DNA from: Sulfurospirillum diekertiae
Lineage (GTDB): Bacteria; Campylobacterota; Campylobacteria; Campylobacterales; Sulfurospirillaceae
Direction of reading: 5' to 3'
Assembly: GCF_002162315.1 (NCBI RefSeq)
Contig: NZ_CP021416.1
Coordinates: 868,001-932,000, forward strand
DNA: 64,000 bases
Positions 19,679 through 32,275 of this stretch are shown here, in pieces; within the stretch, counting starts at the first letter, position 1; each line of letters opens with the position of its first letter. The notes beneath the pieces are model-generated. The model ran no database searches and was not told where the DNA came from. It worked only from the letters and a program-made list of their open reading frames with translations. The translations under genes were made by a program, and so were the position numbers.

Positions 19679-20529
19679 GAGAATTTAAAATTTTAGCCAT
19701 TGTGCTCTTCTTTACAGCAGTGACCTATTGGGGTGTGGAGCCTTATGCGCATTCGCAAATGCACCCACATGTGGCGCCTGCTGATTTTGGGTTTAAAGAC
19801 ATAGAACCTTTACATGTAAACGGCAATGTGGAGAGTGGGAAAGCCCTTGTGGAAGCTAATTGCATTGCGTGTCATAGCATTAAGAGTTTAGGACTTGAAG
19901 CACCTATGAGTTTTGAAGCGGCTGCAAGTGCCTATGGTGTCGTGCCTCCCGATCTCAGTCATGCCGGGGTGATTTACGATAAAAATTACCTTGCAGGCTT
20001 TTTGAAAGACCCTGTGAGTGCGACCAAACTTTCGCATAAATTTGGAGATACCAAACCCTATGCAATGCCAAGTTTTAATTACTTAAGCGAGCAAGAGATC
20101 GCCGATATCGTAGCGTATCTGGGCAACATCGTCTCTACCAAAGCGTCCAATAAAATGGTGTTTGAAGAGGCGTGTGGCAGATGTCATAGTATGAAGTACG
20201 ATGGATTTAAAGCCCAAACACCTGCCTCTTCGCTCAAAAGTTATCTAGGTGCGGAAGCTCCTGATGTGTCGATGATGATTCGCTCTAAAAAAGCGGAGTA
20301 TCTAAGCACGTTTATCAACGAACCACTCAAAATGGTTGAAGGCATTGCCATGCCTCGTGTGGGACTGACCGAAGCCTCTCAAGAGCAAGTGGTCGCTTAC
20401 ATGGAAAGTGTGGGAGATCGCAAAAAGGCTGAGCGTGAAAGCCTTGGCTTGAAGCTCATTGGATTTATGGCTATTTTTACCCTAATAGCGTACCTGTGGA
20501 AAGTTCAAATTTGGAAGGAGGTGGAGTAA
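19675..20529 (+). CDS. petC: Diheme cytochrome c subunit of the bc1-type complex
   Basis: The true start is ATG 19675, overlapping the cytochrome b stop by ATGA and preceded by AAGGAG. The 284-residue product has an N-terminal helix, two heme sites (CIACHS near residue 64 and CGRCHS near residue 165) and a C-terminal membrane anchor. Diheme cytochromes in place of cytochrome c1 are usual in Campylobacterota. A TACATGTA site at 19809 encodes Leu-His-Val. Confidence 0.93.
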   Translation: MREFKILAIVLFFTAVTYWGVEPYAHSQMHPHVAPADFGFKDIEPLHVNGNVESGKALVEANCIACHSIKSLGLEAPMSFEAAASAYGVVPPDLSHAGVIYDKNYLAGFLKDPVSATKLSHKFGDTKPYAMPSFNYLSEQEIADIVAYLGNIVSTKASNKMVFEEACGRCHSMKYDGFKAQTPASSLKSYLGAEAPDVSMMIRSKKAEYLSTFINEPLKMVEGIAMPRVGLTEASQEQVVAYMESVGDRKKAERESLGLKLIGFMAIFTLIAYLWKVQIWKEVE

Positions 20530-20540
20530 TCCACCCCCTT
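20520..20540 (+). terminator. Terminator overlapping the petC stop codon
   Basis: GGTGGA and TCCACC pair around GTAA, whose last three bases are the petC stop codon, and are followed by CCCTTTTT. It ends the bc1 operon. A second perfect hairpin, TTAGAGTTC/GAACTCTAA with loop CTACA, lies at 20558-20580. Confidence 0.75.
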
Positions 20541-20584
20541 TTTACTTCGTTTTCTCATTAGAGTTCCTACAGAACTCTAAACAC

Positions 20585-20659
20585 GCTTTTAAAGCCAAGC
20601 TCTAAAAGCTACGCTAACACTGTGTTTTCTTCGGCAGAATGCCCACGCACCTTGGGTGC
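20585..20659 (+). ncRNA. Candidate structured RNA or hairpin repeat, copy A
   Basis: Stem 1 is GCTTTTA (20585-20591) with TAAAAGC (20603-20609); a 37-nt linker containing TTTTCTTCGGCAGAA follows; stem 2 is GCACC-TTG-GGTGC (20647-20659), followed by TTTTACTTCTT, so it can act as a terminator. A second 75-nt copy lies at 30855-30929 on the other strand with the linker nearly unchanged and both stems altered by paired substitutions. Whether it is a small RNA, a 3' processing element or a REP-like DNA repeat cannot be decided from sequence. Confidence 0.5.
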
Positions 20660-20730
20660 TTTTACTTCTTCTAAATTTAATTTTGCAAAAAATCTACTAT
20701 TTTTTTTTCGTCAATAAAACTCTTTTTTCC

Positions 20731-30610: not shown

Positions 30611-30712
30611 ATGGAAACTTTTATCACCCATCAAACCATACACCAACCTCAGAGCATTGCGCAATTTTCTAACGCATCACTCGTCGTCGTCCTCCTCCTG
30701 AAGCTCCGTTAA
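30611..30712 (+). CDS. Leucine/valine leader peptide of leuA (attenuation)
   Basis: A strong AAAGGAG site precedes ATG 30611. The 33-residue product starts METFITHQTIHQ and ends ASLVVVLLLKLR, so it has three Val and three Leu codons in a row (GTC GTC GTC CTC CTC CTG) before Lys-Leu-Arg-stop. This is the hallmark of a ribosome-stalling leader for a branched-chain amino acid operon, as with ilvB and leu leaders in E. coli. It sits 246 bp before leuA, with possible terminator stems between. Confidence 0.85.
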   Translation: METFITHQTIHQPQSIAQFSNASLVVVLLLKLR

Positions 30713-30854
30713 TACTTCACTCTTAACCCCATTTATTTTCACTGTTGATTTTTAAATTGGCTTTTTAGCCCTGAGGATACCTCTATCTAATTAGCTCAAT
30801 TTTTATCATTTTCATTGTTGTTTTTCTTGCAATGATGCAAGATTTTAATTTGAA
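30713..30854 (+). terminator. Candidate attenuator region between leader peptide and leuA
   Basis: The best terminator is CTTGCA-ATGA-TGCAAG at 30826-30841, followed by ATTTTAATTT. Smaller stems are GGCTTTTTAGCC (30759-30770) and GAGGATACCTC (30773-30783); the GAGG of the latter could instead pair with the CCTC of the leader's Leu codons (30691). Such alternatives fit attenuation, but the exact pairing would need folding and probing. Confidence 0.5.
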
Positions 30855-30929
30855 GCGCAAAGTGCGCGTGGGCTTTCTGCCGAAGAAAACTCAGCGTTAG
30901 CGTAGCAACTTTAGCTTTGCCAAAGTTGC
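30855..30929 (-). ncRNA. Candidate structured RNA or hairpin repeat, copy B
   Basis: Read on the minus strand, stem 1 is GCAACTTT with AAAGTTGC, the linker again contains TTTTCTTCGGCAGAA, and stem 2 is GCGCA-CTT-TGCGC. It is exactly as long as copy A (20585-20659), has only three changes in the 37-nt linker and paired changes in both stems. It lies in the 5' region of leuA on the opposite strand, between the attenuator and the start codon, so it may also act as a structure in the leuA transcript. Confidence 0.5.
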
Positions 30930-30958
30930 GTTATAAAATATAACTTAAGGATATTTCT

Positions 30959-32275
30959 ATGCAAACTGCACAAACTTTTAAAAAATACAAACCGTACCCA
31001 TTGGTACATTTAGCTCACCGTGAGTGGGCAAGTAACGTTATAACAGGCGCTCCCATTTGGGTTAGTACGGATTTACGCGATGGCAACCAAGCTCTTATTG
31101 AGCCGATGAATACGACCAAAAAATTGGCGTATTTTCAAAAATTGGTGGAGATGGGATTTAAAGAGATTGAGATCGCGTATCCGAGCGCTTCTCAAATGGA
31201 CTTTGACTTTTGTCGCATGTTGATTGAGCAAAACTTGATCCCTGATGATGTGAGGGTTGCCGTCTTAATGCCTTCCATCGAGAAACACATCAGAAAAACT
31301 TTCGAAGCGATGAAAGGAGCAAAAAAAGTAACGATGCACCTTTACAATCCCACCGCGGATAATCAACGCAAAATTGTGTTTGACAAAAGCAAAGCGGAGA
31401 TTATCGCTTTAGCGGTTGAAGGAACGCGCATCATCAAAGAAGAGGCGGCAAAATTCAAAGGCGATGTGTTGTTTCAGTATTCACCTGAGAGCTTTTCCCA
31501 AACGGAGTTGGAGTTTGCACGCGATGTGGTGAATGCGGTTATTAGCGAGTGGATGCCAACGAAAAATGCACCGATGGTTATCAATTTGCCAAACACTTTG
31601 GAGGCATGCACACCCAACATCTATGCCGATAGAATCGAGTGGATGAGCAAACAAATGTTGGAACGTGACGCGGTTATTTTGAGTGTTCACCCGCACAATG
31701 ACAGAGGCTGCGCGGTAGCGAGTGCCGAGATGGCGATCTTAGCGGGGGCACAAAGGGTTGAGGGCACACTTTTGGGTAATGGCGAGAGAGCGGGCAATGT
31801 TGACTTAGTCACGTTGGCGTTTAATCTTTACTCACAAGGGATTGACCCGATGTTGGATATTTATAACATCGATACGATTTTGCAGGAGATCATCACTTTG
31901 ACGCACAGCAGTATTCCTCCCCGTCACCCTTATGTAGGATCACAGATCTATACGGCTTTTTCGGGCACGCATCAGGACGCCATAAAGAAAGGTATGGAGT
32001 ACCAAAAGGTGGTGTTAGATGGCTATTGGCACGTACCGTACCTTGTGATCGACCCCAAGGATATCAAGCGGGATTACCGCGATGTGGTGCGCATTAACTC
32101 GCAGTCAGGCAAAGGTGGCGTGGCGTATGTGCTGAAGGAATTTTACGGCATTGAGACGACGAAAAATATGCAAATTGAAATTGCATTGGAAGTTCAAAAG
32201 TTGTGCGATGAGAAGGGTATTGAGGTCAATGCGGAGGAAATTTTCAAAGTCTTTCGCCAGATGTGCAAGCTTTAA
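30959..32275 (+). CDS. leuA: 2-Isopropylmalate synthase without the C-terminal regulatory domain
   Basis: 438 residues of the LeuA type 2 branch: STDLRDGNQALIEPM holds the metal-binding Asp of the HMGL-like barrel, HPHNDRGCAVASAE supplies the His pair, and GNGERAGNVDLV the third conserved box. It condenses acetyl-CoA with 2-oxoisovalerate, the first step to leucine. Type 2 enzymes are usually about 550 residues or longer with a leucine-binding dimer domain. Here the protein stops after VFRQMCKL, so that domain seems absent. Control may rest on the upstream leader peptide instead. Confidence 0.9.
   Translation: MQTAQTFKKYKPYPLVHLAHREWASNVITGAPIWVSTDLRDGNQALIEPMNTTKKLAYFQKLVEMGFKEIEIAYPSASQMDFDFCRMLIEQNLIPDDVRVAVLMPSIEKHIRKTFEAMKGAKKVTMHLYNPTADNQRKIVFDKSKAEIIALAVEGTRIIKEEAAKFKGDVLFQYSPESFSQTELEFARDVVNAVISEWMPTKNAPMVINLPNTLEACTPNIYADRIEWMSKQMLERDAVILSVHPHNDRGCAVASAEMAILAGAQRVEGTLLGNGERAGNVDLVTLAFNLYSQGIDPMLDIYNIDTILQEIITLTHSSIPPRHPYVGSQIYTAFSGTHQDAIKKGMEYQKVVLDGYWHVPYLVIDPKDIKRDYRDVVRINSQSGKGGVAYVLKEFYGIETTKNMQIEIALEVQKLCDEKGIEVNAEEIFKVFRQMCKL

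Follow-up and report, generated by a model that had tools for sequence, protein, structure and literature searches.

A mobile Campylobacterales repeat with a folded, covarying core, probably moved as a MITE by an IS5-family element in Sulfurospirillum

Most small repeats of bacteria are simple palindromes. ERIC and BOX repeats span roughly 100-130 bp, and to our knowledge no pseudoknots have been found in either. MITEs, such as RUP of Streptococcus pneumoniae with IS630-Spn1 and Correia/NEMIS of Neisseria, usually have an unconstrained interior. A survey of GTAG-tagged REPs (Di Nocera et al. 2013, PMC3733652) describes these as single hairpins of 20-40 bp, reports GTAG repeats in epsilon Proteobacteria including Sulfurovum, and records that RAYT genes without REP flanks also occur.

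In this report, we analyzed a repeat of which two copies, A (20585-20659, plus strand) and B (30855-30929, read on the minus strand), lie in a 64,000-nt stretch of the Sulfurospirillum diekertiae genome, hereafter the window. We find it probable that A and B are copies of a non-autonomous mobile repeat of the Campylobacterales, one that has a folded core and that is moved in Sulfurospirillum as a MITE by an IS5-family element. Like the GTAG-tagged REPs of PMC3733652, the element is short, intergenic and repeated, has GTAG beside and 5' of a hairpin, and undergoes complementary stem changes between subfamilies. Unlike them, it is not a simple hairpin unit of 20-40 bp with a linked, repeat-flanked RAYT, but a core of ~87 nt that contains another hairpin besides its two pseudoknots, and it has no linked RAYT. 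Like MITEs, it is short and non-autonomous, and its terminal repeats and target duplication are those of a resident IS; unlike them, it has a covarying core as its interior, which is present also without the ends in other families. It is structured, dispersed and found in both orientations, as are ERIC and BOX, but its sequence and hosts differ. Full-length copies share their ends and 3-bp duplication with IS5-family ISs, but the element has no transposase gene. The repeat is real and strongly supported, and we class it as a newly described form, a REP/MITE-type repeat with a conserved knotted core. In the literature we found no description of it beyond the GTAG/CGTC survey, which mentions Sulfurovum; the Sulfurovum GTAG family of that survey may be part of this element. 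No Rfam family matches it either, whether the window is searched at gathering score or four loci are searched at E<=1.

Fold and covariation of the core

The sequence-only reading had presented A and B as two copies of a 75-nt element, and its coordinates and lengths were exact on re-reading. Its account of the stems was borne out position by position, with four Watson-Crick to Watson-Crick double changes in stem 1 (with, in addition, one mismatch turned into a pair and one A-T turned into G.T) and two in stem 2. It had also counted three differing sites in the center, correctly; one falls at the pair here called delta, which is C.A in A and C-G in B, and the other two at unpaired positions. 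The length of 75 nt and the seemingly unpaired center did not stand, as the core and the full-length copy A are longer (Table 1) and the center is itself folded and covarying.

A covariance model (R1) was built from 15 copies in the S. diekertiae genome. In an unfiltered search of the window with R1, the next match after A and B reached ~12 bits. Double-sided change occurs in 13/25 pairs among these 15 copies (0/500 shuffles) and in 24/28 pairs among 56 copies from across the order; the latter set has 291 double-change cells against 75 in shuffles, 93.9% of its cells are paired, and 0/500 shuffles matched it on every measure. The scores and both pair-change tests agree with the earlier claim of selection on structure and not chance. 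The contrary pattern, many genomic copies with unpaired stem changes, was looked for as well, and the changes came out paired in both the own-genome and the order-wide alignments.

The 56 copies were also aligned by sequence only (alignment A3), and mutual information was scanned over every column pair. The scan recovers hairpin 1, helix alpha and hairpin 3, and it also yields pairs that cross alpha or one another: beta (pair 56-66, G-C or A-T in 53/56 copies), delta (pair 36-41) and gamma (pairs 38-49 and 39-48, Watson-Crick in all copies). The model that gathered the distant copies already contained hairpins 1 and 3 and alpha, whose pairing could partly be an artifact; gamma, delta and beta were absent from that model, so their pairing is not an artifact of the search. 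On trees built without the columns under test, ~10 of 11-13 changes are shared for each of beta and delta and 3/3 for gamma, while unrelated control pairs have 1-3. For columns 36-46 and 41-46 the shared changes number 7-8, which may reflect a triple or a subfamily effect. Further, gamma is wholly re-paired in divergent copies (GCC/GGC, GTC/GAC), and copies at L288, L290 and L291 (genomes G314 and G226) have mutually similar, hairpin-like insertions of ~36-50 nt in the alpha-beta loop, with alpha and beta largely preserved. Covariation supports hairpins and two crossing (pseudoknot) helix pairs, in a unit of ~87 nt and six helices. A plain three-hairpin center was rejected, as its lower-stem pairs 44-68 and 45-65 (alignment A1) lack double changes whereas the crossing pairs have them. 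Integron attC, IS200/IS605 ends, and HDV-like and hammerhead folds, compared by eye, did not fit.

On the strand on which A was first read, the non-Watson-Crick cells are 64 A.C and 19 G.T, with 37 of the A.C cells at two pairs. Because A.C reads as G.U or G.T on the complement, the opposite strand is the better candidate, and the complement is probably the folded one, although this evidence points there only moderately. On that strand GTAG stands directly before hairpin 1; the corresponding CTAC after hairpin 1 is nearly invariant across the order. The terminator-like stem and T-rich tail that had been noted at A are indeed present (hairpin 3), but they lie on the strand away from which this pointer leads. 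The two crossing helix pairs and the conserved unpaired bases are RNA-like, and the excess of A.C would become G.U wobbles on the complement, as would suit a functional structured RNA (small RNA, protein-binding RNA or ribozyme) expressed from the strand opposite copy A and multiplied genome-wide. The clustering of A.C cells at two pairs weakens this explanation, as does the tolerance of folded single-stranded DNA for G.T, and we consider it unlikely, given also the behavior of inserted copies described below.

Table 1. Positions in the window of the features of copies A and B and of a neighboring hairpin
Feature	Position	Strand	Remarks
Full-length copy A	20560..20695	+	136-bp, MITE-like; ends AGAGTTCC...AAAAAATCT; related species with empty sites
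Left terminal palindrome h0, copy A	20560..20578	+	
Structured core, copy A	20581..20667	+	R1 match, 100.1 bits (E 1e-24); complement probably the folded strand
Hairpin 1, copy A	20585..20609	+	covariation; CTAC comes next, so that on - GTAG immediately precedes the hairpin
Pseudoknot 2 region, copy A	20613..20626	+	helices delta (GY/RC) and gamma (AAC/GTT)
Pseudoknot 1 region, copy A	20627..20643	+	helices alpha (4 bp) and beta (RGC/GCY)
Hairpin 3, copy A	20647..20659	+	covariation; terminator-like, T-rich tail
Right terminal palindrome h4, copy A	20664..20695	+	degenerate
Separate terminator-like hairpin of upstream cytochrome b / cytochrome c genes	20520..20535	+	just before copy A
Structured core, copy B	30847..30933	-	R1 match, 90.8 bits (E 4e-22); without terminal palindromes
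Hairpin 1, copy B	30905..30929	-	covariation, orthologue comparison
Helices delta and gamma, copy B	30888..30901	-	covariation
Helices alpha and beta, copy B	30871..30887	-	covariation
Hairpin 3, copy B	30855..30867	-	covariation, orthologue comparison

Spread, placement and drift of the copies

The element occupies 19 places in the S. diekertiae genome by BLAST, and R1 finds 40 copies there at E<=0.001, 27 of them at E<1e-6. All 24 Sulfurospirillum genomes have it, with 7-80 copies each. The sequence-only reading had rightly pointed to the Campylobacterota, and the wider search of that phylum gave matches in 79 of 397 genomes and 14 of 68 genera, which belong to five families (that of the genus and four others), all of the order Campylobacterales; selected genomes of the other families have up to 26 copies each. 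The hosts are sulfur-metabolizing relatives of Campylobacter. The phage records searched gave zero matches, the plasmid records a single partial one, in Sulfurovum, and a pattern scan of viral contigs matched one contig. At L294:501-863 (genome G022), four copies stand in tandem with a period of 92 nt; a change in alpha is compensated between copies of this array, and beta is gone in two. A second, related repeat (L006:1847, L183:252, L211:247 and L307 ~950-1090) has hairpin 1 in common with the element, followed by CTACGTTA as in the element and then by GCCACTARGGCACTAAAGCTTGCC and a GGCAGA hairpin. At L307 it is bounded by terminal palindromes of the element's kind.

Placement is intergenic at all 30 loci examined in the S. 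diekertiae genome and at 85 of 86 loci overall, the remaining one lying within an ORF. There is no consistent orientation preference among these 86 (30 same, 25 opposite, 14 convergent and 16 divergent with respect to genes). The dispersed, intergenic, covarying copies agree with one option of the sequence-only reading, a REP-like repeat with structure. Sites are occupied in some related species and empty in others. In two exact filled/empty pairs, ATT is duplicated at one near the B site (L154 vs L150/L153) and AAT at the other (L031 vs genome G012). Full-length Sulfurospirillum copies are 136-137 bp. Of 23 full-length candidates, which include a few spurious ones, 13 carry the same 3 bp on both sides, where 5.9 were expected (p 0.0005). 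Copy A has ATT on its left (20557-20559) and ACT on its right (20696-20698), a degenerate duplication.

Orthologous copies in sister species change at 0.093 per site in stems and 0.087 in loops, totals that include one pair to be discounted because it consists of two different copies (L044, 64/87 identical). Since stems and loops change equally and mostly on one side, inserted copies drift, and elements that went on spreading account for the covariation seen between lineages. Copies that are intergenic, insertion-polymorphic, free in orientation and drifting thus indicate that structure is selected for spread and not at each site, and they argue against an RNA product needed from each copy. 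These facts also speak against a small RNA or 3'-end element specific to the locus, another option raised earlier, as the copies take both orientations to genes, come and go between sister species, and decay in place. There are exceptions: one compensatory double change in copy A of G025 and one in the orthologues of copy B in G029 and G032. Such in-place compensation counts against our preferred explanation and could mean that a few sites have a local role. The element combines unusually clear compensatory evolution, crossing helices included, with the behavior of mobile DNA whose inserted copies decay. Covariation by itself is no proof of a local regulatory RNA.

The distances to genes (median 23 nt to 3' ends and 82 nt to 5' ends over the 86 loci) are what might be expected of a transcription terminator or 3'-end module that recombination has spread, and hairpin 3 with its T-rich tail at A scores as terminator-like. 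A search for the terminator pattern (GC-rich stem, then T run) gives a weak 5-bp match at A and none at B. However, a separate terminator already lies upstream of A (Table 1). Further, copies face genes either way, 16 of the 86 lying between divergent genes, and termination has no need of a covarying center. We regard this explanation as highly improbable.

Both the A-site and the B-site regions adjoin terminator-like hairpins. In the windows 20530-20700 and 30740-30950 and at the orthologous sites, elements occur in several species, partly by independent insertion and in either orientation; it is possible that the A and B sites are insertion hot spots. Upstream of the 2-isopropylmalate synthase gene (30959-32275) is a 33-codon ORF (30611-30712, plus strand) that ends in SLVVVLLLKLR and is followed by a terminator-like hairpin (30825-30842), an arrangement conserved genus-wide. 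It resembles a leucine/valine attenuation leader, and between its hairpin and the synthase gene lies copy B.

Terminal repeats and candidate mobilizers

A search with the end sequences led to a 916-bp IS5-family element in the same genome (853,562-854,477), with 19-bp perfect terminal repeats and ATT at both flanks. Its transposase belongs to the IS5 family (NF033581, PF13613/PF13359) and is split across two frames. A 96.7% copy is present on plasmid pSulSP of Sulfurospirillum sp. 'SP', where the flanks are ATT and AAT and not identical. The ends of our element match those of this IS at 14-17/18 positions on the right and at 12-16/18 on the left; the poorer left-end match is a point against our preferred explanation. 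By shared terminal repeats and target duplication, the full-length Sulfurospirillum copies are a MITE of an IS5-family IS, and the transposase of this IS is, from these ends, the likely mobilizer of the 136-137-bp unit.

We propose the following mechanism. The 87-nt core, as one strand, would fold into two small tandem H-type pseudoknots with hairpin 1 on one side and hairpin 3 on the other, and these helices, with the conserved bases (ACG, CTACGYTAACRCTGRGTT, YTCRGCRG and GCYC), may form the recognition unit for a putative trans-acting factor. Selection on spreading elements would make the stems covary between lineages, while each inserted copy would drift. In Sulfurospirillum, the core would have come to lie between terminal palindromes derived from an IS5-family IS, whose DDE transposase would move the unit in trans and duplicate 3 bp of A+T-rich target. 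The element would be a MITE in this genus, and in other families it would exist as a naked REP-like repeat. With this, the Campylobacterota gain a defined repeat family and a candidate mobilizer in the same genome, and the reader of the fold becomes a testable question.

The MITE route cannot explain all of the spread, because many copies lack IS ends. IS terminal inverted repeats are absent from copy B and from 30 copies in three genomes of two to three other families (G314, G334 and G418), and within each of these genomes the copies have no obvious common sequence beyond the core. Outside Sulfurospirillum the core is naked and REP-like, and GTAG adjoins hairpin 1 on the strand opposite to the one first read. 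Another possibility, which we entertain only tentatively, is that the core represents a double-pseudoknot RNA, present across the order and with spreading of its own, that was secondarily captured by an IS5-type element in Sulfurospirillum; it could be likened to a bacterial counterpart of a short interspersed retroelement, or to a mobile ribozyme or a protein-binding RNA.

The position of GTAG, immediately before a hairpin as in the GTAG-tagged REPs that PMC3733652 reports in Sulfurovum among others, raises the further question of whether GTAG and minus-strand hairpin 1 are a REP moved as single-stranded DNA by a tyrosine (Y1, RAYT-like) transposase. In 23 of 24 genomes of the genus there is a Y1 gene in near single copy, and the S. 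diekertiae protein resembles the NCBIfam REP-associated tyrosine transposase, slightly under its cut-off. Outside the genus, 20 of the 64 element-bearing genomes have a Y1 gene where ~8 would be expected at random, ancestry uncorrected; however, the other 44 lack one at E<=1e-40. None of the Y1 loci searched holds the element, and the S. diekertiae gene is bordered by an unrelated repeat, GGGGTCAG, which fits the GGGGWSAS ends given in PMC3733652. The 3-bp duplications, in turn, fit a DDE transposase. Absent linkage and weak co-occurrence led us to reject a RAYT as the mobilizer, and we judge the Y1 explanation very unlikely; an IS5-family transposase is preferred. The Y1 gene itself (L026:1386-2247; 338,384-339,245 of the genome) has 34-nt inverted repeats, GGGGTCAGGGCTAAACTTTTAACTTTT, at its flanks, and a frameshift in a run of A has apparently cost it the C-terminus that its orthologues have. 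At L016, a repeat end like that flanking the Y1 gene is fused to a truncated copy of the core.
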